Source of the DNA: Lachnospiraceae bacterium
Lineage (GTDB): Bacteria; Bacillota; Clostridia; Lachnospirales; Lachnospiraceae
DNA length: 64,000 bases
Assembly (NCBI GenBank): GCA_017938315.1
Contig: JAGBBV010000008.1
Span: 1 to 64,000, forward strand
Direction: 5' to 3'
Shown here: in pieces, positions 17,351 through 31,580 of the stretch
How positions within the stretch are numbered: position 1 is the first letter of the stretch
Layout of the letters: each line of letters begins with the position of its first letter
Notes under the pieces: generated by a model
What the model saw: the letters and a program-made list of their open reading frames with translations, nothing else
Database searches by the model: none
What the model was told of the DNA's origin: nothing
Translations under genes and position numbers: made by a program

Positions 17351-18037
17351 TTATTCCACATTCTCTACGCTTAGCTTGTACCCCATTCCCCATATGGTCT
17401 TTATCAAATCGCCTTTCTCACCCATCTTACTGCGCAATTTCTTTACATGGGTATCTATTGTCCTTGCATCGCCGAAATAATCATAATTCCATACATTATT
17501 CAGTATCTTTTCCCTGGACAGTGCAATTCCTTTATTCTCCACAAAATAAGTGAGTAACTCAAATTCCTTATAACTCAATTCAATCAGTTCGCCGTCGATG
17601 GTAACGCTGTGGGCGGATTTATCAATTACAATACCGCCGGCTTCCACACGTTCTTCGGTTCCCAGCTGGTTTGTACGGCGAAGAATGGCTTCTACACGGG
17701 CTACCAGAATTTTGGGACTGAAGGGTTTGGTAATATATTCATCCACACCAAGCTGGAATCCTAAAAGTTCATCCTTTTCATCTGATTTGGCTGTGAGCAT
17801 GATAATGGGTACTTTTGAATACCGGCGGATTTCCCGGCAAGTCTCCCAGCCGTCCATGAGAGGCATCATTACATCCAGAATTATTAATGCAATATCTTTT
17901 TGCTCCAAAAAGATATCTACTGCCCGGCTACCATCCTCGGCCTCCAAAACTTCGTAGCCGCTTTTGGACAGAAAGTCTTTTACCAGTTTCCGCATTCTCG
18001 CTTCATCATCAACCACCAGTATTTTCAGTCGCTCCAT
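17351..18037 (-). CDS. OmpR/PhoB-type response regulator (no adjacent kinase)
   Basis: 228 residues. The receiver domain has the acidic pair VVDDEA (10-12), the phospho-acceptor Asp in LIILDVMMPLMDGWE (about residue 53), Thr/Ala in MLTAKSD, and Lys in YITKPFSP. A C-terminal winged helix (GELIELSYKEFELLTYF through ARTIDTHVKKLRSKMG) binds DNA. It overlaps the upstream gene by 29 nt. The usual kinase gene is not downstream; a chemoreceptor gene follows instead. The regulator-less kinase at 3223-4716 is a candidate partner. Confidence 0.95.
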   Translation of the reverse strand: MERLKILVVDDEARMRKLVKDFLSKSGYEVLEAEDGSRAVDIFLEQKDIALIILDVMMPLMDGWETCREIRRYSKVPIIMLTAKSDEKDELLGFQLGVDEYITKPFSPKILVARVEAILRRTNQLGTEERVEAGGIVIDKSAHSVTIDGELIELSYKEFELLTYFVENKGIALSREKILNNVWNYDYFGDARTIDTHVKKLRSKMGEKGDLIKTIWGMGYKLSVENVE

Positions 18038-18608
18038 TTAACTCCTCCCCCACATTCATTTGCAGGCTGTTTTCTTTCTCTCTTACTTTGTTTTCACGTT
18101 CTGTTAGTTCCTGTTCCCATGATGCATATTGATTAATAATGTTATTTTTATAATTTAATATATTAGGATTATCGCTATTTAAAGTAATGGCAAACATAGC
18201 AATTACCATGATTACTAAAATAATATTTATCAGCACCGAAACATGGTATTTGTTCACCCTGCTTTTTGGACGTGCAGGCCGGATCCGTTCACGTACGGGC
18301 GTCCTATCTGCATCTTCTGCATCGTGCACAAAAGTCATGTACATGGGAATGGGACGAATTTCTTCTTCCGATATGCCGAGACTTTGCAGTTCTTCCTGCA
18401 AATGCCTTAAATATTCCCATCCCAGCGGTGTACGGAATACCTTCTTATCCAAAAGCTGGTCATAAACGGCAAGACGGTTTCTGCCCGATTTGCCGGTCAT
18501 ACGGGTTTCAAAATATCTGGCTAATTTGATTTCTTCTTCAGCTGTTTTGGCATCCTTTTCAGAGCCGAAACGATAGCCGTTCATCAGTAACTTGTCATTA
18601 TCTGCCAT
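18009..18608 (-). CDS. Conserved single-pass membrane protein of unknown function
   Basis: 199 residues. The first roughly 125 residues are soluble and helical with many charged residues; a single TM helix lies at about 124-144 (VSVLINIILVIMVIAMFAIT), then a short Gln/Glu/Lys-rich coiled coil and a polar tail. Its end overlaps the response regulator start by 29 nt, implying co-translation. The topology, with cytoplasmic N-domain and outer coiled coil, is compatible with a sensor or regulator accessory, but this is inference. AAAGGATT precedes the start. Confidence 0.75.
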   Translation of the reverse strand: MADNDKLLMNGYRFGSEKDAKTAEEEIKLARYFETRMTGKSGRNRLAVYDQLLDKKVFRTPLGWEYLRHLQEELQSLGISEEEIRPIPMYMTFVHDAEDADRTPVRERIRPARPKSRVNKYHVSVLINIILVIMVIAMFAITLNSDNPNILNYKNNIINQYASWEQELTERENKVREKENSLQMNVGEELNGATENTGG

Positions 18609-18643
18609 AGCACAATCCTTTTCTTTGGAATGATGATAATTTT

Positions 18644-18669
18644 AAAACCACCGTATCTGCGGTGGTTTT
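18644..18669 (-). terminator. Hairpin terminator at the left edge of element 1, probably the original ssrA terminator
   Basis: AAAACCACCG/CGGTGGTTTT forms a perfect 10-bp stem with a 6-nt loop, T-rich on both sides. It lies between the recombinase gene and the chromosomal membrane-protein gene. If element 1 were removed through the shared AGTGGA, this hairpin would follow directly after ssrA on the minus strand. Confidence 0.7.
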
Positions 18670-18674
18670 ATTTA

Positions 18675-18680
18675 AGTGGA
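18675..18680 (+). other. Left attachment core of element 1 (candidate)
   Basis: AGTGGA here recurs in the same orientation at 31234-31239, exactly at the 3' end of ssrA. Serine recombinases need only a very short identical core, so a 6-bp match at the two predicted ends is sufficient but not proof. Confidence 0.5.
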
Positions 18681-18705
18681 AGTGCATGATTAATATCCGA
18701 ACCCC

Positions 18706-20343
18706 TTACAGAAAAAAATCATTATTCTCTGGCTCCAAATACTTCTCATAGTCCATTTCCACTTCATTTGTAAAGTCACCATTATTTTTAACTCGCATTA
18801 CCAAATAATCTAAATTTTCAATAATATTAATTGTATCCTCAAACTGAAGCGTTCTTCTGTCATCTGTATAATAGAATGTAATTACAACCTTATCTTTATA
18901 CAGATAAATCCTATCAATTAAATCTGATAATGCATTTTTGTAATACACACCATCTCTGTTGAGTTTTCCTGCCCAACTCTCAAAATATCTTACCACATCA
19001 TCAAATTTAAGTCCATTCTTTTGTCTATTCTTATCCACAGCAATTGATTCTTCAAGAGATTTTTTCTGTTTTTCCAATTCTTCAATTTCTGAAACAATTG
19101 AATCAAATAAATTACCCTTCTTAATAAATGAAATCAATCTCTTTAACTGCTTATTAACTTCTTTCAAAGATGCTTCTTTACTCTTAATCAAATCCTCTGT
19201 AAAACCATTTTTTGAATTATAATAATTAAAACATTTATTAGCAATAAGAATCCTTAAGGATGCATCATTAAGCAGATTATCAATTTCATACTTAACAATT
19301 GATTCAACTTCTTTCTTCCTCTTATTTTTCATTGTACATTTATGCTTTCTTGCATTTTTACATGAATAGTAGTAATGAATATCTCCATGTCTACCAGTTC
19401 CACAGGTTCCTTGCATGGTTTCCCCGCATTCTCCACAGTAAATATGTCCTGACAACCAATAATCCGCAATTGGAGCATCTGGATTATTCTTTTTAATAGC
19501 ACCTTTTCCACCACGCTTGTTTTCATCAAGTTTCTTTTGTGCAGCTTCAAAAAGTTCATCAGTTACTATTCGTGGCATTCCACCCTTAATTGGTTCTGGT
19601 AAAGAACGCCAATGATATTCACCAATGTAAGCCCTATTTCGCAGAATATTTGCCAGTGTTGATACCACAAAAGGTCTTCCCGTAGAAGATTTAAACCCTT
19701 CCGAATCCAGTTCATTTGCAATTACTTTCAAAGATTTTCCATTAACATAATCGTTGAAAATTCTTTTAACTACAACTGCATTTCTTTCATCAATTTCATA
19801 TTTCTGCTGACTTTTCCCTTTATAGCCTAAAATTTTACGACCGTTGTATAAACATTGTTTAGCATTATCTGCCAAACCGCGGGTTACATTCTGTGAAAGG
19901 TCAATAATGTAATTATGTGCCATAGCGGCATAAAGCCCTTGTACTGCATAACGCATCCCTTCATCCTCTGGTAAGGTTTCTGATACGGTTACTATCTCTA
20001 CACCATAATCCCGCATCTTGCCATCAATCCAAAAAGAATCATGAATTTCTCTAGAGATTCTGTCCATTTTCCACACAAGTAAATACGCAGGACGTCTTAC
20101 TTTGCACTGATGAATCATATTTTGAATTCCATCTCTATCAAGATTTGTACCCGTCTTGGCATGGTCTTCAAACTCCCCATCTGCTGGAATAACATATCCA
20201 TGCTTTAATGCATATTCATGTGCTGCTTTTCTTTGCTGTTCAATTGATACATCCCTTTGCGCATCACTCGAATAGCGGTAATAACAAAATGCAACATTAC
20301 CAGGATTTCGCTCGAATTTTTTAAATTTCATTGCCATAGTCAT
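18706..20343 (-). CDS. Large serine recombinase (integrase of element 1)
   Basis: 545 residues. The N-terminal resolvase domain has the catalytic serine in YYRYSSDAQRD and the arginines of the SIEQQ and WKMDRISRE motifs; then come a recombinase domain, a zinc ribbon (CGECG ... YSCKNARKHKC, about residues 315-345) and a coiled coil (about 385-440). Such enzymes integrate elements at short att sites without tyrosine chemistry. It lies at the left end of the element, about 26 bp from the candidate core. An AGGAG site suits the ATG at 20343 or, with better spacing, the one at 20337. Confidence 0.95.
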   Translation of the reverse strand: MTMAMKFKKFERNPGNVAFCYYRYSSDAQRDVSIEQQRKAAHEYALKHGYVIPADGEFEDHAKTGTNLDRDGIQNMIHQCKVRRPAYLLVWKMDRISREIHDSFWIDGKMRDYGVEIVTVSETLPEDEGMRYAVQGLYAAMAHNYIIDLSQNVTRGLADNAKQCLYNGRKILGYKGKSQQKYEIDERNAVVVKRIFNDYVNGKSLKVIANELDSEGFKSSTGRPFVVSTLANILRNRAYIGEYHWRSLPEPIKGGMPRIVTDELFEAAQKKLDENKRGGKGAIKKNNPDAPIADYWLSGHIYCGECGETMQGTCGTGRHGDIHYYYSCKNARKHKCTMKNKRKKEVESIVKYEIDNLLNDASLRILIANKCFNYYNSKNGFTEDLIKSKEASLKEVNKQLKRLISFIKKGNLFDSIVSEIEELEKQKKSLEESIAVDKNRQKNGLKFDDVVRYFESWAGKLNRDGVYYKNALSDLIDRIYLYKDKVVITFYYTDDRRTLQFEDTINIIENLDYLVMRVKNNGDFTNEVEMDYEKYLEPENNDFFL

Positions 20344-20366
20344 TTCTCCTTCTATTTATTAGATTG

Positions 20367-20443
20367 AGCTTCTGTAAAGAAGCTATGTAAAAGCAACTCT
20401 TTTTCATTTTTATGTTTTTTTGTGGGAGCCTTACGACTCCCAC
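20367..20443. other. Two hairpins between primase and recombinase genes
   Basis: AGCTTCT/AGAAGCT (20367-20384, loop GTAA) and GTGGGAG/CTCCCAC (20422-20443). Neither has a T-run on the correct side in either direction, so they are not ordinary terminators; they may modulate the recombinase mRNA or serve as binding sites. Confidence 0.5.
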
Positions 20444-20477
20444 AAACTTCTGCCAGTTAAAGCACTGATTCCTGATA

Positions 20478-22166
20478 CTATTCATCATTGCCATAACCGT
20501 TTTTACTACTTACACGAAGAAGTCCTCTGTAATGGTCTTTTAAGACCGGTGTACAAATTTTTTCTACGTCCCCACCGGTGTAGGTAGGGTTTTTCCAATC
20601 GTCTAATCCAAAACTTACAATCAATCTTTCTGGTTTATCCATCCGATTACTTGGACGAATGGTACGTTTCTTATCCTCACAAGACCACTCAGGACAATCC
20701 TCAATCACATTGATAATGCTATCAGTAAATTTATCACGTGCCAAAATCTGTCCGTTAGGGAAATTAGTTCTATACCAACTTTTATACAATGAAAAAAGGA
20801 AATCGAAAGGTAAAAGGTCCCACACAAATTGAGGAGAAAGTTCTTCAAAAAACTGCCGTACAGGGTCATTATATTCCTTGAACTCAGCCAAGGCAGTCAC
20901 ACAGGTTTGCGGTTCAGACAATACGTAATAATTCATGTTTAATACTTTATATAAGACATATTCCAAAACATCTGTCCTGTGTAAATACTCATCTTTAATG
21001 TACTTTCTTTCTTTTCCTGTGAAGCACTTTTCAAACGGAACAAATAACTGCCTACGATAAAATGAATCTGATTTGTCTTTTACTTTTGGCTTTTCATTCA
21101 AACACTCAACTACAAAACCGTAGAACTGATAACTAATTGGTTTCTTATATTTTCTGTTAATTGAAATAACGTCATTAGTGATAACAGCTTTAATATTTGC
21201 TGCCTTATCAATATATGTTCCTACATCATTTTCATCTTGAATTACTGCATTCGCTCTAATTAATGGCTCTAACATAAAATCTTTACTAAAGTCCTCCAAT
21301 GATATAGACGCGTAACTTCCGTCTCCACATAATGACCGCATAAGTTCACACAACGTTCCTTTACCGTTATTACCCTTTTCTGAATAAAACCAAGCAGATT
21401 TATTCCATCTTACGAATGGTCTGATAATAGCTCCAAGAATTTGCCATAAAAGTTCGACAATTTCAGGGTCATCAGATAAATCTTCCATCCACGATTCAAC
21501 ATCCCAATCTGTTCCATCGTCATCATTATGTATTGTGACATTTGTAGCAGCAGGATTATAATTCACTCTTGATTTACTTAAGAAGACATACTCTGGTGAA
21601 AAAAGTTCTAATACCTTTGTCGAATAATCAAAAATACCATTGTTGACAGCAATCAAGTCTTTATCAGTAGTTCTTTTCACTCTTGGTGCTTGCATATTTA
21701 ACAATTCCAACACTTCGGAAAGTTCTCGACTCGAAATAGAATAATTATATTCATGAGCTACACGCTTAATTTCATCTTCATCCGTGATGTATAAGCCTGA
21801 ATTTTCTCCTGTGTCACAATAAATAGCAAGCAAATCATAACTTGGGTCGGCATTATCTCCACCACACTTCACCCTAACAATATGATGGGTAAACAACATA
21901 ATTGTTGCAATCTGTGATGCACACAGCTTTTGTGGAATTGTTAATTTACAGCCTTTAGGAAGTATTTGATTTTCCAAAACAATCTGTGACTTAATGATAG
22001 CAACAAGTTCCTTCTCGATTTCATCAGGAGATGGAAGATTATCCCTATCTAACGTATCAAGATAATCATTTGTACAAGTACGAATGATTTCATTCAACGT
22101 TCGTCCTGTGATAAATGCAAAATTAGTATTTGCACTATCAACAAAGTTGATATTTAATTCGTTCAT
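20478..22166 (-). CDS. Phage/plasmid primase-helicase, D5/P4 type
   Basis: 562 residues. The C-terminal half is an SF3-like helicase: P-loop SEKGNNGKGTL (about 287-297), acidic Walker B-like VIQDEND, and a sensor asparagine in VECLNEKPK followed by DSFYRRQLFVPF, typical of D5_N/P4-type replication proteins. The N-terminal third is helical and unassigned; no clear primase DxD motif is visible to me. It probably unwinds the element origin. The start has no recognisable Shine-Dalgarno sequence and lies 19 nt beyond a terminator stem, consistent with tight control by the upstream attenuator. Confidence 0.88.
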   Translation of the reverse strand: MNELNINFVDSANTNFAFITGRTLNEIIRTCTNDYLDTLDRDNLPSPDEIEKELVAIIKSQIVLENQILPKGCKLTIPQKLCASQIATIMLFTHHIVRVKCGGDNADPSYDLLAIYCDTGENSGLYITDEDEIKRVAHEYNYSISSRELSEVLELLNMQAPRVKRTTDKDLIAVNNGIFDYSTKVLELFSPEYVFLSKSRVNYNPAATNVTIHNDDDGTDWDVESWMEDLSDDPEIVELLWQILGAIIRPFVRWNKSAWFYSEKGNNGKGTLCELMRSLCGDGSYASISLEDFSKDFMLEPLIRANAVIQDENDVGTYIDKAANIKAVITNDVISINRKYKKPISYQFYGFVVECLNEKPKVKDKSDSFYRRQLFVPFEKCFTGKERKYIKDEYLHRTDVLEYVLYKVLNMNYYVLSEPQTCVTALAEFKEYNDPVRQFFEELSPQFVWDLLPFDFLFSLYKSWYRTNFPNGQILARDKFTDSIINVIEDCPEWSCEDKKRTIRPSNRMDKPERLIVSFGLDDWKNPTYTGGDVEKICTPVLKDHYRGLLRVSSKNGYGNDE

Positions 22167-22181
22167 ACTAACAACGGGTAC

Positions 22182-22261
22182 AAAAAAGCACCCTAATCCT
22201 TTCTGAGTAGAGTGCTTGCATCATATCATTTTATCTATATTAAGATACATAAGCTCTACTC
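22182..22261 (-). promoter_or_regulatory. Terminator/antiterminator leader of the primase gene
   Basis: In the minus-strand RNA three segments compete. A (22251-22261) GAGTAGAGCTT can pair with B (22205-22217) AAGCACTCTACTC, 8 contiguous pairs plus 3 more across a 2-nt bulge. B can instead pair with C (22186-22193) GGGTGCTT, 8 pairs, followed at once by a T-run, making a terminator just ahead of the primase ATG. B-C is stronger on the minus strand (G-U pair) than on the plus strand (mismatch), so it belongs to the primase transcript. Confidence 0.7.
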
Positions 22262-22500
22262 TATTTCATCAAAGAATATCTATGACGAATGTAATACAAT
22301 ACACATTCTATAGATGCCCTCTTTGGCGGGCGAGCTTAATGTACCACTCAACAACTTACCTATCCTTTCAGGCTTCACTTCCCTTCCAGAATCAGCAGTA
22401 ATCTGAAAATTCTAATCCATAAATATAAAACCTTTTAATATGTGAATCAGTTTTACAACATAGGGATTCTAGGTTTAATTTCCTCCTTGATTATTATTCT
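22218..22500. other. Gap between primase leader and HTH gene
   Basis: Beyond the attenuator segments this 283-bp stretch is AT-rich and shows no protein-like reading frame. It includes the 5' part of the primase leader RNA. I did not find a convincing promoter of its own, so the primase transcript may start at the HTH gene promoter (23294-23322). Confidence 0.5.
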
Positions 22501-23262
22501 CTATTTAAAGAGTAAAATCTCTTTCTGCTCATTAATGTCATCTGAATAATATGATATATATTCTTCAGTAATTATTTCTTTATCATCAATTAATATAATC
22601 GAAAGATTACCTTTAAACGAAAGGGTATTTTTCAATTTAATGAGATAATCATATACTTCTTGTTCATCAACTACTAATGAACATTTTCTTGATGCATCCA
22701 GTGATAGAAAAATGAATTTTCCAAGTTGACTTTTTAACAATGGCATCCATTTATTCATTCCCATATTTTTAAATGATACAAACTGAATGACCCATTTTAT
22801 TTCATCAATTTCTAATACGCAATCAGCATTGTATTTCCTTCCTGTGCTCCCATCCATTTTCTTATATTGAGGAAAAATATCCTTCTCAATAAGGGTATTA
22901 GTAATCAGTCCCATTCCAAATACTTTAAATTCATTCCTTTGAATTTTCAGCTTATCTTCAGCCTGAATAATCAATTCATCTGAATAACTGATATCAATCT
23001 CATCTTCTGATACATCAACATATCCTGCCGCTTGCATAAGCATCTCAAATGTAATATTATTTTTTGGCTTTGCTCTGTCGGCTGTTAATTTCTTGATGAG
23101 CTGCGGTGTTGCCTTGTAATCACCTTTTAGAACCCTTGTTATACCAGCAGCGCTAACACCCGCATCCTGTGCATATCTTCTGATAGAACGTTCTTCGTTA
23201 GTCCCCTTTGCACTCATTATTAAGCTATTGACTTTATCAATATTGTAATCAGTTTCACTCAT
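22501..23262 (-). CDS. HTH regulator with large C-terminal domain
   Basis: 253 residues. Residues about 25-60 form an XRE-like helix-turn-helix (RRYAQDAGVSAAGITRVLKG). From about residue 120 an alpha/beta domain follows (NADCVLEIDEIKWVIQF ... KCSLVVDEQEVYDYLIKLK) that I do not recognise; the pattern of a conserved Asp, then a beta strand, resembles nuclease-like folds, but catalytic residues are not convincing. Located next to the structured core and behind a strong promoter, it is the likely master regulator of the element, comparable in position to Stl-type repressors of satellites (inference). Confidence 0.75.
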   Translation of the reverse strand: MSETDYNIDKVNSLIMSAKGTNEERSIRRYAQDAGVSAAGITRVLKGDYKATPQLIKKLTADRAKPKNNITFEMLMQAAGYVDVSEDEIDISYSDELIIQAEDKLKIQRNEFKVFGMGLITNTLIEKDIFPQYKKMDGSTGRKYNADCVLEIDEIKWVIQFVSFKNMGMNKWMPLLKSQLGKFIFLSLDASRKCSLVVDEQEVYDYLIKLKNTLSFKGNLSIILIDDKEIITEEYISYYSDDINEQKEILLFK

Positions 23263-23293
23263 TTCATCTCACCAAACTCTCTTTTATGTTTCA

Positions 23294-23322
23294 ATAATAC
23301 ACCTTTAATGTTTACATGTCAA
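23294..23322 (-). promoter_or_regulatory. Promoter of the HTH regulator gene
   Basis: Minus-strand TTGACA (23317-23322), 17-bp spacer, TATTAT (23294-23299): near consensus and 32 bp from the start codon. Confidence 0.85.
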
Positions 23323-23459
23323 CAACTAATCGCGAATTATGTTTATTTGTAATCACTCGTAAAAAAATGAAATGGAACCACATAAATCTGAACAGGCTTA
23401 AACACTGATTCTAGAGTCCGAGCATCCACACCACTCTTCTGTCACCACGAAGTGGCTTG

Positions 23460-24075
23460 CTCTTGATAAGAGTAAAATGATAAATGATACACTGATATAC
23501 CGAGATGCTATACATATGAAAATACTGATTCTGTCATCCTCGCATAATTTGAATCATATCATTTATCATTCTCTTGTCATGAGTGACCTAAACTAATTAT
23601 CAATTGATAGTTATACAGGACCCGATAGGGACACCTGCGAATGCAGGTGGTAAGATACGAGCGTCGGCTGTGCCGACCACGGTTGCCAATAGGCAAATGT
23701 GTCACTCGTTCTTATCCTGTTTCCTTCTTTCCTCCACGACTGCTCCATAAAGGCGTGGGATAAGGAAATATTGTTATTTTATCAAGGCTTTGCAAAGGGG
23801 CACACACTGACTATGTCATATGCCGCCTGCCGCAAAGCCATATATTTTCAGCTGATATATGAGTAGTTATCAGCTGACTCTTTGCAGCAATAATTCAAAC
23901 TTGGTGACACACAGATATATTATTGCTGCAACCATATTGATAGTTATGTATTTTCTACTTGCTGCATAATTGCAGCAACGCGAAGCGGACTTTGTCCGCT
24001 AAAAATTTATTGGAACATTCGCTTGTCGAATGATATAAAAAAATAACTCCAACAGATGGCGCAACTCCAATCTGT
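23460..24075. ncRNA. Large array of stem-loops (candidate ornate structured RNA or origin region)
   Basis: This gene-free stretch contains consecutive non-crossing perfect stems: 23460/23472 (5 bp), 23476-23489 with 23557-23570 (14 bp), 23581-23587 with 23701-23707 (7 bp) enclosing three hairpins at 23632-23649, 23663-23677 and 23683-23695, then 23786-23793 with 23832-23839 (8), 23848-23877 (10), 23882-23894 with 23919-23931 (13), 23959-23978 (8), 23984-24000 (7), 24016-24032 (6) and 24052-24075 (6). Size and setting recall the large ornate RNAs of phages and mobile elements (GOLLD, ROOL), but I cannot match either by eye. Strand is undecided. Confidence 0.6.
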
Positions 24076-24099
24076 AGAGCATTCAATTCATAAAAAAAC

Positions 24100-24280
24100 A
24101 GCCCAGTAATGGGCTACTTTTATCTTGCCATATCAAAAATCGCCCTCTAGTGGGCTACTTTTATTCTTGTCCGCATTAATATAGCCCGCTAGTGGGTTAC
24201 TTTTATCCTTGCTCACATTAATATAGCCCTCTGGTGGGCTACTTTTTCTCGCTACATTAAAAATAACCCACTAGCGGGTT
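24100..24280. repeat. Five palindromic repeats, period 40-42 bp
   Basis: Units at 24100-24115, 24141-24156, 24183-24198, 24225-24240 and 24265-24280 each have the form AGCCC-N6-GGGCT, most followed by ACTTTTAT. Unit 5 changes to AACCC/GGGTT on both arms, a compensatory pair of changes that keeps the dyad; unit 3 changes one arm to a G-U-compatible form. Spacing is close to four DNA turns. Unit 1 read on the minus strand ends in seven T, so it can also terminate the 24616-25197 transcript. Confidence 0.8.
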
Positions 24281-24301
24281 ATTTTTCAGTATATGAAAAA
24301 A

Positions 24302-24615
24302 TGTATCATATCTATGATACAACTAATATACACGTCTGATACAATAAAAAATATATAAATTAACAAAAGCCTTGAAATATCAACGTTTTTTTGATACACA
24401 CCCTAAAATACACCGAATGTATCACGTGTATCACGATTTTACCAAAACTATTTATATATAAAATACATGGTATTATCTTTCTTTTTTCTTTATATAACTT
24501 TTATAAAAAGAATGATACATATGATACAAACTTATATATAGCTAGGTTTTATCAGTGTTTAGAGTGTATCAAAAAAATAAAATTTCATGATACATGTATC
24601 ATAAAAAGTGATACA
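24302..24615. repeat. Iteron-like cluster: 12 copies of TGATACA
   Basis: TGATACA or its complement TGTATCA occurs at 24302, 24315, 24337, 24392, 24418, 24427, 24513, 24522, 24565, 24588, 24595 and 24609. Several are arranged as palindromes (24588-24601 gives TGATACATGTATCA) and some as direct pairs 9 bp apart (24418/24427, 24513/24522). Such density is not expected by chance in 314 bp and looks like a replication origin or a cooperative regulator site. Further single copies occur at 23485 and 25224. Confidence 0.75.
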
Positions 24616-25197
24616 CTATCCTTTATTATCGTTGAACTGTACCCATAACACTGAAATCATCTTCTGTATCAATTCATTCAAACTAATTTCTCCCAAACTA
24701 TCTGAGAGCATTTCAACAAATTTCTTTTCTTCTGTACTAAGCTCTTTACCACAGGTAACAATCATTCGGAAATCAATCTTTGTGTTTTTCCAAAGACTTT
24801 GAGCAAAGTCAGTTTCAGCGGAAACGCTAAATTCTGGCAGACCACAATCAAAATCCAAACATGGTGTAATTTTAGAATGTTCAGAAACCATCTCATTCAG
24901 ACGGTCTTCTTTTTCCTGTTCTAACCGAAGAATACTTGTCAAAGCATTCTTAAGAAGGATTAACGCATTAGCACATGAATACATTTTACCGTTATCCGCA
25001 CGCCACGCATTCATTGCAAGATAGTATATATTGCTCCCCATCGCTGCACAAATATTGTTTGTATCACCATATGTAATCATTGGGTTTTCAACTTCAAGGT
25101 ATTCTAATATTCGTTTTATTTTTGTAGCACTGATTGGATTTTCTACATCAAGTTTAACTTTTGTATCATTTCCATGTACATCAAATCGAATTACCAT
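24616..25197 (-). CDS. Unrecognised element protein next to the iterons
   Basis: 193 residues, mostly helical, acidic overall, no signal peptide or membrane segment. Visible features are a beta-rich N-terminus (RFDVHGNDTKVKLDVENP), a central helical portion with RLEQEKEDRLNEMV, and a C-terminal helix pair. I recognise no family. Its 3' end touches the last TGATACA copy. AGGAGGAAGTAAT precedes the start. Position suggests a replication or partition accessory, but this is not supported by any motif. Confidence 0.65.
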   Translation of the reverse strand: MVIRFDVHGNDTKVKLDVENPISATKIKRILEYLEVENPMITYGDTNNICAAMGSNIYYLAMNAWRADNGKMYSCANALILLKNALTSILRLEQEKEDRLNEMVSEHSKITPCLDFDCGLPEFSVSAETDFAQSLWKNTKIDFRMIVTCGKELSTEEKKFVEMLSDSLGEISLNELIQKMISVLWVQFNDNKG

Positions 25198-25293
25198 ATT
25201 ACTTCCTCCTGTTAAAAAAATACTGATACAGAAACAGTTATAATCCTCTGTATCGGTAAATACTAAATATTCAAAATAAAAGCCTTTCCTCGA

Positions 25294-26310
25294 TTAGAAC
25301 GATGGTGTAAAGTTTTCAAAATTATCAAATATGTAATCATCTAATCTTTGTTGAATTTGTGAGTATGCTGACCTAACTCCTAGACTGCTCTCGTAAGCGT
25401 TTTCAGCAATTTGTTTTAATTCATCATCTGAAAGAACTTCTCTACGAATAAATCCTTTAGGAAGCAAATACTTCTTTTCAATTTGTTGTATAGGTGAATT
25501 TTCAAATTCCGAAATCAAATACATATAATCCTTTAATTGAAGAGGACGTAAATTTGTTATCGAACCGATTCTTGAAGCAAGTTCTGGAATCAATCCAAAA
25601 TCAATTACATCGTCTAATGTCAGCTCCTCTTCAAACGCAGAAAAATTACATGTCTGCGCGCCAAACCCCAATGCTTTTGTACTTTTATTTTTTGCTATTT
25701 CATTAGCTTTTGCAGAAAAAGCCCCTACAAAAACCCAGCTAATATTATCTAAGCGTACACGTTTCCCGCTATCAGAAGAATGACGACGTAGCATAATATA
25801 TGGCTGAGATGATTGCACTAAAGCCAAAAGTTCTGCCTGCATTGCCGAACTAACATTATTTCCATGACTCTCGACTTTCGGTGTGACAAATTTATCGAAC
25901 TCGTCATAGACCACGATGTAGCCTTTACTTGCTTTTTCATCTATTGACAACAATGGACTATATATTTTTTCTGCACCAGAAAATCCGCTTTGGGTAAACA
26001 CCGCCGAATTTGCAATGATGATATAGGGAAATAACTCGTTCTTTATTACATCGAAAATGTATGTTTTCCCACATCCAGAAGGACCACAAAATAGATTTCT
26101 AGACACACGACCGTGTACGTGATTATACAAAAGCATACTTGCTTTTCTTACTGCCTCATCTTGCTTATAAACTCTTGTCTTTAGAAACTTATAAATTTCA
26201 CGTGGGTCTTCCAATATCTCGTTTGGTTTTTCTTCCTGCGTTTTATTCCAACCTTCTTCGTCATCAAAAATCGATTCATTGCATTTGATAAATCCAGAAA
26301 ATAGTTCCAT
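25294..26310 (-). CDS. ClpX-like AAA+ ATPase of element 1
   Basis: 338 residues. Walker A FCGPSGCGKTYIF (about 81-93), Walker B GYIVVYDEFDK (about 131-141), sensor and arginine region ISWVFVGAFSA, then LGFGAQ and DVIDFGLIPELASRIGSI, which parallels the ClpX/HslU large domain ending, and a small C-terminal domain with LGVRSAYSQIQQ. It is shorter than ClpX and lacks the N-terminal zinc-binding domain. LGF occupies the place of the ClpX IGF loop that docks on ClpP. It might remodel a replication or host protein for the element, alone or with host ClpP (inference). AGGAGGAGGTG precedes the start. Confidence 0.85.
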   Translation of the reverse strand: MELFSGFIKCNESIFDDEEGWNKTQEEKPNEILEDPREIYKFLKTRVYKQDEAVRKASMLLYNHVHGRVSRNLFCGPSGCGKTYIFDVIKNELFPYIIIANSAVFTQSGFSGAEKIYSPLLSIDEKASKGYIVVYDEFDKFVTPKVESHGNNVSSAMQAELLALVQSSQPYIMLRRHSSDSGKRVRLDNISWVFVGAFSAKANEIAKNKSTKALGFGAQTCNFSAFEEELTLDDVIDFGLIPELASRIGSITNLRPLQLKDYMYLISEFENSPIQQIEKKYLLPKGFIRREVLSDDELKQIAENAYESSLGVRSAYSQIQQRLDDYIFDNFENFTPSF

Positions 26311-26426
26311 TTATTTTCACCTCCTCCTTTGATGTTCTGCGCACGCACTAACTCAATTGAAGCATCGTGACGATGATTATAAAACAGGCTGAAACCAAAT
26401 TTGGAATCAGCCTTAATCAATCACTA

Positions 26427-27344
26427 TTATGCTGTTTTCTTCTTTTTCATTTTATCTTCCGCTGTATCAAGAAAAAACTGCATTGCTTTTTCCGCTTGCG
26501 CAGCTGCTTTTGCAATTTCTTGTTTGCTTTCTTTCAGTCTAGACGACCAGCCATCAATATATGCCACATCATTTGTAAATTCGCTATCATCAAAAGCAAT
26601 TTGAAAATGAGATAATAACATCTGACTTCCAATCTGAGCCACCAGTTCTTCTCGACAATATGGGTCTGTGCCAAATGTCTTTCCCACATATCGTCCAACA
26701 CTTTTTGCCGTACTATGAATTATTTCATGTAACAAAGAACTATAGTATGCATACGTAGACTTAAATCCTTCTTTTGCAGGAACCCTTACCATATGATTTG
26801 ACGGACTATAGAAGCAGTTCGAACCATCATCAACAATATCAATTGTTAAGCTGATTGCTTTAGCATATGCATCAATATATTTATCCAACAATTTAGTCTG
26901 CTTCGTACTCGTCTTGTAGGTTTTTACAGCAGGATAATGAGAATGCACGCCACAAATATCTTCAATATTGAAGGCTTGATAGAACCTTAAAAACCTACCT
27001 TTTTCTTGTTTGCCAAATTCGTCCAAAACAGGATTTCCATTTTCGTCCTTTTTATCGAATGTACCATAATAGAAAATTGGCTTCTTGTGTGAACCTTGTT
27101 TTACAAAGATAGACGCATCCTCTGGCTGCGTCTTTCTGTAGTCTTGTAATGCATTAAAAGTCATGTACTCACCCGGTTCAAGTATCATTCTATTAATCCC
27201 TCGATAAGCCTTCCCAGTTGTGTAACTTACTGCAAAAGGAGGTCCACCAGACCACGGGCGAATCCAATGAAATGGTTTGTTTAATGTTTTTGCTTCCTCC
27301 AACTTGTCTAAAATCTTTTGTGTAATAATTTCATACACATTCAT
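26427..27344 (-). CDS. ArdC-like antirestriction protein (ssDNA-binding plus zincin domain)
   Basis: 305 residues. The N-terminal domain has the ArdC-type pattern PFHWIRPWSGGPPFAVSYTT and GKAYRGINRMIL, associated with single-stranded DNA binding. The C-terminal domain is a zincin metallopeptidase-like fold with LLHEIIHST (HExxH) and a downstream glutamate in REELVAQIG. Such proteins protect incoming or replicating element DNA. A Lys-rich tail ends the protein. It precedes the ClpX-like gene in the same direction by 117 nt. Confidence 0.88.
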   Translation of the reverse strand: MNVYEIITQKILDKLEEAKTLNKPFHWIRPWSGGPPFAVSYTTGKAYRGINRMILEPGEYMTFNALQDYRKTQPEDASIFVKQGSHKKPIFYYGTFDKKDENGNPVLDEFGKQEKGRFLRFYQAFNIEDICGVHSHYPAVKTYKTSTKQTKLLDKYIDAYAKAISLTIDIVDDGSNCFYSPSNHMVRVPAKEGFKSTYAYYSSLLHEIIHSTAKSVGRYVGKTFGTDPYCREELVAQIGSQMLLSHFQIAFDDSEFTNDVAYIDGWSSRLKESKQEIAKAAAQAEKAMQFFLDTAEDKMKKKKTA

Positions 27345-27403
27345 GTTCTTTCACATCCTTTCAAAATCGACTAATGACACCGTCTATATATTCAACAATA
27401 TTG

Positions 27404-27429
27404 CGTTGTGCACTATGCACAACGTTTTT
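27404..27429 (+). terminator. Palindrome with plus-strand T-run
   Basis: CGTTGTGCA/TGCACAACG, loop CTA, followed by TTTTT. It works as a plus-strand terminator on paper, but no plus-strand gene lies upstream, so it may instead be an operator for the ArdC-like gene starting 60 nt away. Confidence 0.45.
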
Positions 27430-27448
27430 CATTTTTCGGATTTATGGC

Positions 27449-27479
27449 AAAAAAATATCTGCTCGTATATGAGCAGATA
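27449..27479 (-). terminator. Minus-strand terminator ahead of the ArdC-like gene
   Basis: TATCTGCTC/GAGCAGATA, 9-bp perfect stem, followed on the minus strand by seven T. It faces the palindrome at 27404, giving opposite terminators 30 bp apart. Confidence 0.65.
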
Positions 27480-27590
27480 ACAAAAATGCAACTGTTTGCA
27501 TGATGGGAAAATATTATGTTTTTTCAGTTATATTGCGAATAGAATTAACACATTATAAATTCTATAATAAATAAAAAAGGAGGTATTAAT

Positions 27591-27914
27591 ATGGATAATT
27601 TACAGAAAACTCATATACCAAATAGTAGATATCGTGAAGACGTAAAAATATTTCATGTGAAAAGATATCTTGATTCTGGCATTGGATATAAGAAGTATGC
27701 TCACATGAACGGTATTCCTCATAACACTTTATATCGTTGGATATTAAAATATAAAGATTTATTTGCCAATGACAATATGTCTTTTGAACCTGTACAATGC
27801 ACAATCGGCGAGAGTAAAAAGGATACTATTGAACTTCCTATTGAAGAATATCGAGAATTGGAATCAATCAAAACCAAATACAATATTATTCATTCTATTT
27901 TCAAGAATGTCTAA
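27591..27914 (+). CDS. Small HTH protein, transposase-orfA-like
   Basis: 107 residues. A helix-turn-helix is evident at about 22-58 (HVKRYLDSGIGYKKYAHMNG then IPHNTLYRWILKYKD), similar to the N-terminal HTH of IS3/IS66 accessory proteins, followed by a short helical tail. No transposase catalytic gene or inverted repeats are nearby, so it is more likely a regulator than part of an intact insertion sequence. An excellent AAAAAGGAGG site precedes the start; the gene is on the plus strand, opposite to its neighbours. Confidence 0.75.
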   Translation: MDNLQKTHIPNSRYREDVKIFHVKRYLDSGIGYKKYAHMNGIPHNTLYRWILKYKDLFANDNMSFEPVQCTIGESKKDTIELPIEEYRELESIKTKYNIIHSIFKNV

Positions 27915-27975
27915 TACATATTAATCATTTCCTTTTTTTAAGGTCAGTGAGATACATCCCCTCTCTGACCTTCCA

Positions 27976-28018
27976 TAAAAAAGAACCCATACACTATGAT
28001 ATTCTCATAGCATATGGG
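27976..28018 (-). terminator. Terminator of the transglutaminase-like gene
   Basis: On the minus strand CCCATA and CTATGA pair with TCATAG and TATGGG, with a 2-nt TG/TG interruption, then TTCTTTTTT. It lies 22 nt after the stop codon. Confidence 0.85.
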
Positions 28019-28039
28019 CTCAAGTTGTACTTATATTTC

Positions 28040-29644
28040 TTAGTCACGAAGCCAAGGAACATTGTTGTCAGGGTTCGTAGCATTCTCATAAGTCCAAATT
28101 TGTTTACCGATGGATAAAGGTTCATAAACACCTTTGTAAGTACCATAACCATTTGTGTATTTTCTTTTTGTTTCACTTTGTTTTCCGACTTCAGATGTAT
28201 CAGGACTGTCACATACATAATCATTAAACAAAGTAATATCAATAGGCATCCAGTGTCCATTAAGATAAATAGCATTGTAGGTATGCATATATTCATCATA
28301 AGATGTACAAGGAATACCATTAGAACGACACATAATTGCAAGAATATTAGTGTAATCCCAACATACACCAACACCATTGTAATAAGCAAAGTTATTATCA
28401 TCAGTATAACCATCATAGGTATCTGTTGATGCAACTCTTGCTCTGGAATATTTAAGTTTATCAACTTTGTAACTATCATAAGCAACATTACTTGCAATAT
28501 AGTTTACAAAAGCAAATACTTTTGCTTCATCAGTCCAATCATCTTTGATAAGTTCTTTACCCTTTTCAACCCAAAGGTCAACATGTGTAACTCTACCATT
28601 GGAACCAGATGTAGGATAAGTAATTTCATCCAAATCAAGACAATCGTTAGGGTCGATATTTTTCATTGCTTTAACAAAGTTTCCTCGACCATTTACAATG
28701 GTATCTTTGCTACCATAGTGAATGCTACACATATAACTGTCATTACCATTTACATAAAAATAGTGATATGTCGATACATCATCTTTTGCAGTTGGTACAA
28801 CTGTATAAAGATAATACAAACCATTTTCCAAATCAGTAATGTCAAATGTGTAATTTGTATCTTTTGTTACATTCATATCAGAATAAACAGTATTTTTATC
28901 ACTTAGTTTAAAGATTCTGATACGAGCATTAGGTTCAATTTGAGAACTATGTTTATAGAATGAATAAGTCAAAGTATTACCATCGATAGACATTCTTGTA
29001 CCACAATAACCCTCATAATTGATATTGACATTGCGGATAGGTGTAGAACCAACATTACCGCTTTTCTTAAAGTCATAAAGAATTACTTCGTCAGTATACT
29101 CGATAACAGTATCATAAGTAATTTTCTCAGTAACCTTTTCAGCATTTTCGATGTGCTTTACCTTTTCATCAGTTCCAAGCTTTGCATTTGGTTCAGCCAC
29201 AGTATCTGATTCAGGTTCTTCTATTATCCTAATCGAACTAGAATCAAATATTATTTTTTCTTCGATTATTGCTTCATTTTCTTCAATTATTGACTCTTTT
29301 TCTTCGATTACTTCTTCTTTTTGGAGTTCTGTTTTTTCAACTAATTCAATAGCCGGTTCTTCTTCAACCACATTTTCATTATTCTCGACCGATGTGATTT
29401 CGCTTTTTGCAATGGCTTTCTTTTCTCCATCCCCTTTAATAATGCTTCCAGAGACAATACCTGCCAAAAATAAAAGAAACAATGAAACAATAGCAACTCG
29501 TATTTTAGAGGTAGACTTTTTCTTAGCAATAAGTAGGTCGTTGCCACTTTGTTCAGTCACTGTTTCATTGTCAATGACAGTACCACAAACCGAGCAAAAA
29601 TTTGCACCTTCACTTACTTCTTTTCCACAATTCTTACAGAACAT
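28040..29644 (-). CDS. Zinc-ribbon membrane protein with transglutaminase-like domain
   Basis: About 534 residues. A zinc ribbon at 1-25 (CKNCG ... CSVCG), a TM helix near 48-70, an acidic low-complexity stalk of about 100 residues rich in EEK/IEE, a beta-rich middle domain, and a C-terminal transglutaminase-like protease fold with Cys in GVGVCWDYTNILA, His in YMHTYNAIYL and Asp in MPIDITLF. The triad appears intact. The topology puts the ribbon inside and the enzyme outside the cell. Start at 29644 follows GGAGGGAAAAA. Role in the element is unknown; cell-surface modification or exclusion are possibilities (inference). Confidence 0.85.
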   Translation of the reverse strand: MFCKNCGKEVSEGANFCSVCGTVIDNETVTEQSGNDLLIAKKKSTSKIRVAIVSLFLLFLAGIVSGSIIKGDGEKKAIAKSEITSVENNENVVEEEPAIELVEKTELQKEEVIEEKESIIEENEAIIEEKIIFDSSSIRIIEEPESDTVAEPNAKLGTDEKVKHIENAEKVTEKITYDTVIEYTDEVILYDFKKSGNVGSTPIRNVNINYEGYCGTRMSIDGNTLTYSFYKHSSQIEPNARIRIFKLSDKNTVYSDMNVTKDTNYTFDITDLENGLYYLYTVVPTAKDDVSTYHYFYVNGNDSYMCSIHYGSKDTIVNGRGNFVKAMKNIDPNDCLDLDEITYPTSGSNGRVTHVDLWVEKGKELIKDDWTDEAKVFAFVNYIASNVAYDSYKVDKLKYSRARVASTDTYDGYTDDNNFAYYNGVGVCWDYTNILAIMCRSNGIPCTSYDEYMHTYNAIYLNGHWMPIDITLFNDYVCDSPDTSEVGKQSETKRKYTNGYGTYKGVYEPLSIGKQIWTYENATNPDNNVPWLRD

Positions 29645-29686
29645 TTTTTCCCTCCATAAAAGATGCAGCATTTAAAATCAAACTAT

Positions 29687-29827
29687 TCATCTTTTTGTCA
29701 CATCGCCAATAAACCAACGTGTTCCATCTGGTGTCTCATTTGTATGACAGACTATTTGAGAAGCACACGAATGTTCTTTACCATCCGCACATTTGATTAT
29801 GTATAATCGCTTTGTTTTAATCTGCAC
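29687..29827 (-). CDS. Possible small Cys-containing protein
   Basis: A 46-codon minus-strand frame starting at a GTG, with protein-like composition (RLYIIKCADGKEHSCA and TNETPDGTRWFIGDV). It fills most of the gap between the two zinc-ribbon genes. The start has no good ribosome site, so it may be a remnant. Confidence 0.3.
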   Translation of the reverse strand: MQIKTKRLYIIKCADGKEHSCASQIVCHTNETPDGTRWFIGDVTKR

Positions 29828-29875
29828 ACCAAAATTTAGCCAAAACTTGATAGTTATTTTTACCGATTATATGTT

Positions 29876-30520
29876 TTATCTTACTTTCTTGAGTTCACGA
29901 TTAGTCTCTTCAGTATCAAATGGTAACAATCTTCCAGCTACAAACATAGATAGATTTTCATCGTCATCTTTAAATACGAAAAAGAGTGTTTCGTTACTAT
30001 CGACAGGCCCTATGCTCCAACTCAAATCACCATTCTCATGCTCTGTATAGTATACATTATATTCAAAACGCTCAGTTCTTTCTTCATCATAACCATCAAT
30101 GTCTGTAAAATAGAATGTACGCTCTGCACTACCATCACTATTAAGTTTTACACTATATGTAACCTCATCTAGAAACAGCGTATCTTCTCTATTTAGATTA
30201 AAAATAACTCCTTTATATTCACCACGAGAGTCACTCGCCCAATTTGCCTTGTAAGTACACTCCCATGTACCAACAAGTTCTCTTTCAACCTGCTTAGTCG
30301 GTGAATTATAATATCTTATCGCCAAAATTATCACAACGAGAGCAACAAGCGCAATTGCAACAATTCCTTTTTTTCGTTTTTTATTCGGCTTTTTCACATC
30401 TGATTGGGAAGATGCTACATTACCATTATTGATATTAGCAACACCATTAATAGGTGTTCCGCACTTAGGACAAAATTGTGTCCCTTCTACTAATTGATTT
30501 CCACATTGACTACAAAACAT
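29876..30520 (-). CDS. Zinc-ribbon single-pass membrane protein
   Basis: 214 residues. N-terminal zinc ribbon CSQCG ... CPKCG, a basic linker KKPNKKRKKG, one TM helix near 49-66, and an extracytoplasmic beta-rich domain of about 140 residues (LVGTWECTYKANW ... TERFEYNVYY ... LSWSIGPVDS) with lipocalin-like repeated strands. The same architecture starts the neighbouring transglutaminase-like protein, so the two probably belong to one surface module. No enzymatic motif is visible. Confidence 0.8.
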   Translation of the reverse strand: MFCSQCGNQLVEGTQFCPKCGTPINGVANINNGNVASSQSDVKKPNKKRKKGIVAIALVALVVIILAIRYYNSPTKQVERELVGTWECTYKANWASDSRGEYKGVIFNLNREDTLFLDEVTYSVKLNSDGSAERTFYFTDIDGYDEERTERFEYNVYYTEHENGDLSWSIGPVDSNETLFFVFKDDDENLSMFVAGRLLPFDTEETNRELKKVR

Positions 30521-30641
30521 ACCTAATCATCTCCATTTTCTTTTATGATATCGCATAGTATTACATACTGACAGTTTATTGTAATATATTTTTATATGCA
30601 ATGTCAAACTATAATTAATATCAAAAGCGAGGTTTGATATC

Positions 30642-30833
30642 ATGAAAAATACTGAACTAGAAAAACTGGTTTTAAAAAAGCGTGGTGAGGATGGCACAAA
30701 GGTAATCACAATTAGGATTCGAGAAAATCTGCTTGCAGATATAGACGCCACAGCACAACAAATCAACTACTCAAGAAACGAATTAATTTGTGCCATTCTT
30801 CAGCATGGTATAAACAATATAGAGATTCAATGA
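30642..30833 (+). CDS. Ribbon-helix-helix DNA-binding protein
   Basis: 63 residues. A basic N-terminus, then the beta strand VITIRIRENLL and two helices (ADIDATAQQINYSRNELICAIL), the Arc/CopG pattern. Such proteins repress their own or neighbouring promoters. GCGAGG precedes the start. It is divergent from the zinc-ribbon genes, so it may control them. Similar in design to the protein at 58409 in element 2. Confidence 0.8.
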   Translation: MKNTELEKLVLKKRGEDGTKVITIRIRENLLADIDATAQQINYSRNELICAILQHGINNIEIQ

Positions 30834-30881
30834 ATTAGTTACTCTGAATCTAATATAAAAACTTTAATATTCGATACATAA

Positions 30882-30920
30882 TAAAAAGAACCAGCGAGAT
30901 TTTTATACCTCACTGGTTCT
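30882..30920 (-). terminator. Terminator of the short ORF at the ssrA end
   Basis: AGAACCAG-GAG pairs with CTC-CTGGTTCT, with a one-base mismatch, followed on the minus strand by TTTTTATT. It lies just after the stop at 30924. Confidence 0.8.
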
Positions 30921-30923
30921 AAA

Positions 30924-31190
30924 TTATACGATTCCTAAATTTTTAAATGCCTCTATAACCATCTTCTCTTTTTCAGATTTTAAATTTGGTAAAACAATTT
31001 CTTTTTCTCCCCTAGCTTCTAATGAACTTAAGCCACATTTATTTCTTACCTGCGTAATGGTAGAGCGACTTATCCGCACTTCGTAGTGGTCATATACCCA
31101 ATGAATTATTCCACCAAACGTCAATGCGTATTCTTTTGTTCTTGGGGGTTGGGATAATTCTATGATTATTCCAAAGACATTTCCAAACAC
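30924..31190 (-). CDS. Short protein at the ssrA-proximal end of element 1
   Basis: About 88 residues from a GTG at 31190. The frame is open further upstream right into ssrA, but that part is simply tmRNA sequence. The segment KEYALTFGGIIHWVYDHYEV then SRSTITQVRNKCGLSS looks like a helix-turn-helix-bearing small protein; I do not know the family. No ATG is available in frame, also not in the predicted circular form. The AGGG six bases before the GTG lies in the 3' arm of the hairpin at 31194-31217, so translation may be limited. It could be a 5'-truncated gene. Confidence 0.5.
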   Translation of the reverse strand: MFGNVFGIIIELSQPPRTKEYALTFGGIIHWVYDHYEVRISRSTITQVRNKCGLSSLEARGEKEIVLPNLKSEKEKMVIEAFKNLGIV

Positions 31191-31193
31191 AGA

Positions 31194-31217
31194 AACCCTA
31201 GTGTTTGAACTAGGGTT
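31194..31217 (-). terminator. Hairpin downstream of ssrA
   Basis: AACCCTAG/CTAGGGTT, 8-bp stem and 8-nt loop, 18 nt after the tmRNA 3' end. The following T content is modest. It is element-borne if the boundary is at 31234. Confidence 0.6.
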
Positions 31218-31233
31218 CGTATACCTGTGGTCG

Positions 31234-31239
31234 AGTGGA
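31234..31239 (+). other. Right attachment core of element 1 (candidate)
   Basis: AGTGGA at the junction of ssrA and element DNA, matching 18675-18680. On the minus strand it contributes TCCA of the tmRNA acceptor end, so integration preserves the RNA. Confidence 0.5.
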
Positions 31240-31580
31240 TTAGGCGGGAGTCGAACCCGCGTCCAAAGACCCATTCCCTGTCCTTCTACTATCATAGTCA
31301 ATTGTTTTGGTTTCCCGCATTCCCTCCCAGATCAGGAAATTGACACCCCAATCCGTTTAGTAGCTTCATCATACGCCCACAGGTGCAAAGCTTAGCCTGT
31401 GTCGTTTCCTACATAGTCGATGCCCGGATCTTAATGTGTAGGTGCACTAAGTCGGACAGCTGCCATTAGGCAGCGTATGCTAATTTATTATCAGCGTTTA
31501 TATTTAGTGTTGCGATTTGACGCATCGCCTGCGGATAGCTTCTCCAGCTGCAAGACCCCTGTCGAAACCTTTACTAACCC
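31236..31580 (-). ncRNA. ssrA: tmRNA
   Basis: The minus strand starts GGGTTAG and continues with GTTTCGACAGGGG, the conserved tmRNA 5' region; the 3' end has a T-arm (GCGGGTTCGACTCCCGC) and CTAATCC, which pairs with the 5' end to close the acceptor stem, then discriminator A. CCA seems not to be encoded. The tag reading frame ends ADNKLAYAA-stop at 31466-31495; the resume codon is uncertain. It rescues stalled ribosomes together with SmpB, whose gene lies 69 nt upstream. Element 1 begins exactly at its 3' end. Confidence 0.95.

Follow-up and report, generated by a model that had tools for sequence, protein, structure and literature searches.

At the origin oriV of RSF1010, iterons and the folded single-stranded initiation sites ssiA and ssiB lie beside the replication genes; these ssi sites are simple hairpins, and are served by a plasmid-encoded primase. 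The sso's of ICEBs1 (sso1) and of pBAA1 are presented in PMC4595007 as cis-acting DNA of ICEs and plasmids that folds when single-stranded and in which structure can outweigh sequence; the three plasmid sso's named there measure 168–340 nt. The Frpo/ssi single-strand promoters, described in PMC11541004, are folded single-stranded DNA in conjugative elements that is recognised by host RNA polymerase. In Streptomyces theta-plasmid origins such as that of pWTY27, the iterons form both direct and inverted repeats in a noncoding stretch close to the genes for replication, and the RepA of pWTY27 binds a long inverted repeat (PMC3583192). Finally, GOLLD and ROOL are highly folded noncoding loci on mobile elements, often near tRNA islands (PMC12286853).

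The locus described here lies in a window of 64,000 nucleotides, which is part of a 2.63-Mb bacterial genome. We lean modestly towards reading it as a cis-acting origin, that of an integrative element of 12.6 kb, with a conserved core that we infer to work as a folded-DNA, ssi/sso-like initiation site and not as an RNA gene. By analogy, the closest mechanism would be that of an sso/ssi single-strand initiation site beside an iteron cluster; such sites have a conserved stem-loop fold, and the core shows conserved pairing, few wobble pairs and a stable DNA fold. Unlike the ssi sites of RSF1010, the core occurs also where there is no close relative of the element's D5 helicase. The sso's of ICEBs1 and pBAA1 have three stem-loops (PMC4595007), whereas the core is a branched set of helices (P1–P5) with a nearly invariant hairpin, placed beside iterons, and would serve in priming. 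Frpo retains −35/−10 sequences in its fold (PMC11541004), and the proposed likeness of the core to it is that of folded DNA in mobile elements. The iterons of pWTY27-type origins are alike, but the description of those origins, in the text available, includes no covarying core (PMC3583192). Compared with GOLLD and ROOL, as characterised in PMC12286853, the core is smaller, has no Rfam match, shows almost no covarying G-U pairs and sits beside iterons. No description of the core fold was found in the literature searched, which included the available sections of PMC4595007, PMC11541004, PMC12286853, PMC3583192 and PMC4446434.

The integrative element and its hairpin-rich DNA

The element is inserted directly 3′ of ssrA (31235–31580, − strand), and at its far side lies a chromosomal gene (18009–18608, − strand) with a homologue near ssrA in relatives. 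In five of nine congeneric loci ssrA is only ~100–220 bp from that homologue, which represents the uninterrupted state, compared to 12.6 kb in the window; the element therefore spans approximately 18610–31234. The other four loci had no ssrA within the 1.5-kb flank, and no direct repeats of 11–14 bp were found between the two end regions of the element. At the left end is a large serine recombinase (18706–20343, − strand) with Resolvase, Recombinase and Zn-ribbon domains, followed by a D5-type replication helicase (20478–22166, − strand; D5_N, DUF5906 and Pox_D5), for which Pfam gave no separate primase domain. An HTH/XRE-like protein (22501–23262, − strand; phrog_1337, E 1.3e-6, no Pfam match) reads away from the core, and its gene is preceded by a promoter-like TTGACA-17-TATTAT (23322–23294, − strand) that matches at 11 of 12 positions. 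The genes on the other side of the core (24616–27344, − strand) encode a 193-aa protein, an AAA protein resembling ClpX and an ArdC-like antirestriction protein. The ClpX-like protein is encoded at 25294–26310; a related locus, L229, has another AAA protein with a DnaJ-like neighbour.

The stretch between the HTH gene and this gene set is the one in which the first-pass annotation had described dense perfect stems without a coding frame, and the counts bear it out. Perfect, non-crossing stems of at least 5 bp number 17 in 23400–24040, against a mean of 13 in 40 Markov shuffles, while stems of at least 7 bp number 9 (mean 3.45, maximum 6) and paired bases 250 (mean 156, maximum 214) against the same number of shuffles. 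The RNA folding energy of the stretch corresponds to z scores of −9.0 (+ strand) and −6.7 (− strand), with 20 shuffles each. The hairpins of this stretch are real, and above chance. On the 5′ side of the core, a long hairpin (23476–23570, + strand) is built on a 14-bp perfect inverted repeat (23476–23489/23557–23570), and the DNA fold of 23457–23580 has a z of −3.9. Immediately 3′ of the core comes hairpin P6 (23720–23768, + strand), with a perfect 7-bp outer stem, and then further perfect hairpins of 8, 10, 13, 8, 7 and 6 bp (23786–24032, + strand). Hairpins also trail the core in several of its relatives, judged by eye from printed sequences, and across 28 members the density of perfect stems is highest within 300 bp of the core (0.15–0.19, compared to 0.03–0.04 in Markov sequence).

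Five tandem palindromes, also listed in the earlier annotation, were recovered at 24093–24286 from the sequence and an inverted-repeat search, and may act in insulation or termination. They are mutually similar, have T-rich tails and are placed between the core and the iterons. Terminator-like sites number five in 23100–24750, where 0.5 are expected; of the four on the + strand, three fall inside the palindromes, and the fourth (23441–23456) lies 5′ of the core. The stretch as first delimited ended at 24290, and the TGATACA repeats discussed below (~24300–24610) begin just past that end.

Fold and covariation of the core

The conserved core comprises about 106 bases (23615–23720, + strand). 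It is enclosed by helix P1 (23615–23620 with 23715–23720), inside which lie P2–P5, the nearly invariant hairpin H1 (GTCGGC-TRT-GCCGAC) and the variable hairpin H2. P2 is a hairpin, CCC-GATA-GGG (23621–23630), with three invariant outer pairs, and P3 (23632–23638 with 23643–23649) varies in sequence and length; both could be made out by eye in 16 of the 25 members. P4 pairs TAAGA (23651–23655) with TCTTA (23710–23714), and was parsed by eye in 19 members. The 3′ domain (23654–23725, + strand), as defined by our covariance model R1, contains P5 (23657–23661 with 23705–23709), H1 (23663–23668 with 23672–23677) and H2 (23678–23701). The framework common to the relatives runs in the same order, with P1 as AGGGCA...TGCCCTTT, a CCC-hairpin-GGG, a small hairpin, an AGTAAGG/CCTTA pairing, P5, H1 and H2; in most relatives the H1 sequence is GTCGGCTRTGCCGAC.

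This arrangement revises two details of the first-pass annotation. The proposed pseudoknot between ACAGGA and TCCTGT (23615–23620/23715–23720) is in fact the conserved outer helix P1, and is not added to a 7-bp helix. That 7-bp helix (23581–23587/23701–23707) does occur in the window, but in the conserved fold its 3′ strand belongs to P5 and H2.

Covariation, whose absence from homologues the earlier annotation had named as a refutation, is very strong. Over 27 aligned rows, two of them spurious, the covariation score is 0.566, compared to 0.136 (sd 0.016) after shuffling; none of 500 shuffles reaches the score, and slid-partner controls give 0.03–0.10. In the same 27 rows, 94.4% of cells in the 3′ domain are paired, and 14 of 17 pairs show double changes. 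The two spurious rows, L168 (24.1 bits) and window:56861 (15.5 bits), were dropped from the family; they are included in the covariation count, and left out of the wobble count given below. P1 and P4 also change in a compensatory manner, with non-standard cells at 10/209 in the 19 of 25 members parsed by eye. P1 switches as a whole helix, from GGGCA/TGCCC to CAGGA/TCCTG (the window, L150 and L151) or GAGCA/TGCTC (L152). The P1 counts tilt toward pairing, as they were parsed by eye with six members unclear or left out (L074, L085, L098, L102, L146 and L153, also unparsed for P4). P4 takes the forms TAAGG/CCTTA, TAATA/TATTA, TAAAA/TTTTA and TAATG/CATTA, with 5/95 non-standard cells. Because the covariation is so strong, the core fold is a selected one; a point against our reading is that mutational homogenisation can also maintain perfect palindromes.

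When 23615–23720 is folded as DNA, the covariation-supported structure is obtained, with a z of −8.1, and of −7.9 for the reverse strand. The near-equality of the strands would suit a cruciform formed in double-stranded DNA, to which a protein of the host or of the element binds, and which acts in partition, copy control or silencing. We consider this very improbable: the core is a seven-helix branched fold, and such folds are not known to be usual for cruciforms.

Wobble pairs and the choice between DNA and RNA

A complex covarying fold could also belong to a structured noncoding RNA of a new class, transcribed from the + strand, ending at the tandem terminators and regulating or priming replication at the iterons. 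We regard this as unlikely, but as deserving serious weight. The three + strand terminator-like sites between the core and the iterons suit such a transcript and, by RNA energies, the sense strand folds better than the antisense in 19/25 members (p 0.015, mean −6 kcal/mol). Real RNAs, on the other hand, retain many G-U pairs, and structured RNAs tolerate them in covarying helices; the core does not show this tolerance. At covarying, well-kept pairs of the 3′ domain, G-U makes up 4/299 standard pairs (1.3%) in 25 copies. In controls drawn largely from the same genomes the share is 12.7% for 18 tmRNAs (87/684) and 7.8% for 14 RNase P RNAs (70/902), giving Fisher p values of 2e-10 and 1e-5, respectively, in a comparison that is imperfectly matched because the covariance model aligned the core, whereas MAFFT and RNAalifold were used for the controls. 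P1 and P4 together have 7 G-U in 199 standard pairs. G-U is not clearly commoner than A-C, the counts being 4 and 2 at covarying pairs, and 6 and 15 over all 17 pairs. On the RNA side of the balance, the minimum-energy folds of the whole core have 7% G-U, compared to 13/97 in the tmRNA of the window. Rarity of wobble pairs in both directions is also what a cruciform would give.

The near-absence of wobble pairs argues against an RNA of the GOLLD/ROOL kind and for pairing in DNA. The base-pair changes of the core look more like those of folded single-stranded DNA than those of an RNA gene, and the lack of wobble pairs suggests that the core acts as DNA; it would do so while single-stranded.

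Searches for known RNAs agree in leaving the RNA reading without a family. At Rfam gathering scores no family matched the core, and the ssrA tmRNA was the sole match in the window; a low-threshold scan (E up to 10) gave 20 matches, all below gathering scores, with GOLLD and ROOL absent. In the related loci L066, L067, L074 and L090, RAGATH-18 alone was matched, outside the core; in that relative's contig (L074:16700–16772) this RNA scores 72 bits. On the + strand, a single promoter-like site lies 5′ of the core and matches at 9 of 12 positions, and promoter-like sites as a whole are not in excess (7, compared to 7.2 in shuffles). The likeness to GOLLD and ROOL that the first-pass annotation had drawn is not sustained by these results, while the alternatives it had also offered, a new class or a complex replication origin, fit the evidence.

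Relatives, iterons and the proposed origin

Direct similarity gave little access to relatives. At the DNA level the stretch had zero matches in phages, and only short, chance-like ones in 17 of 299 family genomes, its own included. A search of 397 family genomes recovered the 193-aa protein nowhere else, searches with the HTH protein gave no relatives among plasmids or viruses, and viral scans with single proteins came back empty. For the ClpX-like protein, ClpX-type matches came from 395/397 genomes, and weak ones from plasmids and phages. A profile of the D5 helicase, built on an alignment of three of nine D5 relatives from the 397 family genomes, found 70 loci in genome contigs and 3 in viral contigs. 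Comparing the core with these loci by blastn revealed a hairpin shared by four of them, and reading the surroundings gave the common framework described above. Two pattern scans of viral contigs returned two true contigs, both already known as helicase carriers; L135 and L137 matched the pattern without the rest of the fold, and were dropped as spurious.

Eleven 3′-domain sequences went into R1. It scores the window, itself a training sequence, at 62.3 bits (E 1.2e-11). A further 18 loci fall below an E of 1e-9; 12 of them are training sequences or copies of one, and 6 are new. Among genomes or records with a helicase relative, R1 matched 14/34 and 14/38, or 28/72 in total, at E up to 0.1; one of these matches is weak (G436, E 0.053), and two with identical scores (G428 and G465) are probably the same element. 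In the remaining 44 no core was found by this search, which left out L120 and may have missed cores since in most genomes R1 scored just some of the first-look candidates. With stricter filters, 299 family genomes gave three matches at E up to 0.001 (the window's own genome, G103 and G145). The link between D5 helicase and core, 28/72 compared to 2/298 other family genomes, counts for the origin reading, but is inflated because R1 came from D5-bearing loci and the searches differ in threshold and filters. At E up to 1e-20, no helicase relative came up in G103 or G145, which both have the core, and plasmid NZ_CP109058.1, found by blastn, has the core but no D5 match.

The resulting family has 28 core copies: 25 left after removal of the two spurious rows, plus NZ_CP109058.1, G103 and G145. 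L098 stands for L063 and L138, and L107 for L104, L129 and L133, whose scores are equal. Members are labelled mostly Bacillota and Actinomycetota, with one MAG labelled Muribaculaceae (L074); L086, the genome of L152, is labelled only as bacterium, and no host is given for the IMG/VR contig L136. Sequenced plasmids account for three members, NZ_CP109461.1, NC_018580.1 (pGKT2) and NZ_CP109058.1, which must replicate, and we count this for the origin reading.

Beside the core of the window lie iteron-like TGATACA/TGTATCA repeats (24300–24610, by eye), a cluster of short repeats in noncoding DNA, as at iteron-type origins, with the D5 helicase encoded by the second gene from the core. In 23775–24775, TGATACA has 13 copies over both strands; the best 7-mer of Markov shuffles averages 3.6, and none of 100 shuffles reaches 13. 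Across the family, a 7-mer is over-represented (reached by at most 2/100 Markov shuffles) in the kilobase 3′ of the core in 11/24 members, and 5′ of it in 2/25 (L067 and L161; Fisher p 0.004), with L195, L229 and L230 left out and with shuffles that do not preserve hairpins, which can add repeat copies. The 3′ enrichment is not significant in the other 13 of the 24. An earlier 8-mer version over 700 bp gave 13/26 and 2/26, respectively (no more than 1/60 shuffles). The repeat is specific to the element, being TGATACA in the window, GTTTACA in L115, GCGAAAA in L102 and L098, and AGACCAC in L150, and inverted repeats flank some arrays (L090, L107, L109, L150 and L154, by eye). The core is constant across elements while the adjacent repeats change, and this combination, on plasmids and integrative elements alike, suggests that the core belongs to a cis-acting origin and that a host factor reads it. 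That G103, G145 and plasmid NZ_CP109058.1 have the core but no close D5 relative likewise points to a host partner.

For such an origin, the element's own DNA-binding protein and the D5 helicase would open the DNA at the iterons, and the exposed strand would fold into P1–P5 with H1. An enzyme common to many hosts (RNA polymerase, primosome or primase) would recognise this folded core as the place to enter, or to prime, for making the complementary strand, either during autonomous replication or after single-strand transfer.

The neighbourhoods of the core bear on a further alternative, an oriT. Genes of T4SS coupling type (7 of 25 loci), ClpP-like genes (6) and DUF5688 genes (6) are placed on the 3′ side of the core and point toward it in every locus of these clusters; these families were named on one representative each, and the counts are not independent because the loci are related. 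The constant placement of the coupling-type genes also counts for the origin reading. A D5 helicase gene is within 9.5 kb of the core in 14/25 loci, as expected since most loci were found via this helicase. The core, inverted repeats and iterons might together be a relaxase or accessory-protein site for mobilisation, perhaps by a helper element, and we judge this to be rather improbable. It would agree with the conjugative or mobilisable settings, with the single orientation of the coupling-type genes, with the MobF relaxase annotated on the NBC_01304 plasmid, with the inverted repeats around the iterons and with the ArdC-like protein. A scan of 10 window proteins, however, yielded no relaxase. 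One would also expect relaxases to differ between phyla, across which the core is conserved; the D5 link, inflated as it is by how the loci were found, also stands against an oriT. The fixed polarity of the core relative to iterons and coupling-type genes speaks against a cruciform as well.

Returning to the origin reading, we put forward tentatively, as possible but short of probable, a wider proposal. The members may represent phylum-spanning folded-DNA initiation sites, made of branched single-stranded DNA that covaries almost without wobble, in which a host-recognised module is combined with each element's own iterons and initiator on integrative elements, ICEs and plasmids. If so, this would be a widespread structure of DNA, not RNA, that is visible by covariation. 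The core would mark the origins of many unclassified mobile elements and supply a model to search for them, and would point to a shared host factor recruited by these elements. In genome scans, a simple wobble-pair test could then tell whether a fold is one of DNA or of RNA.

GC skew was uninformative on the origin, with no signal in pGKT2 and the NBC_01304 plasmid (whole) or in the NBC_01454 plasmid (sampled). In pGKT2 the skew summed over 182 kb (L196–L205) is net positive. A family annotated in L170 as DHH phosphoesterase is near the core in 5/25 loci (L170, L173, L175, L182 and L184). In the Streptomyces NBC_01454 plasmid (L170:1390–8031) the core is ~1.2 kb from a Tn7-like set of TnsA, integrase, ATPase and TniQ genes. 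In G103 the core (L230:9291–9356) adjoins a serine recombinase, without a close D5 relative, and is near homologues of the chromosomal genes to the left of the window's element (blastn, 17375–17911).
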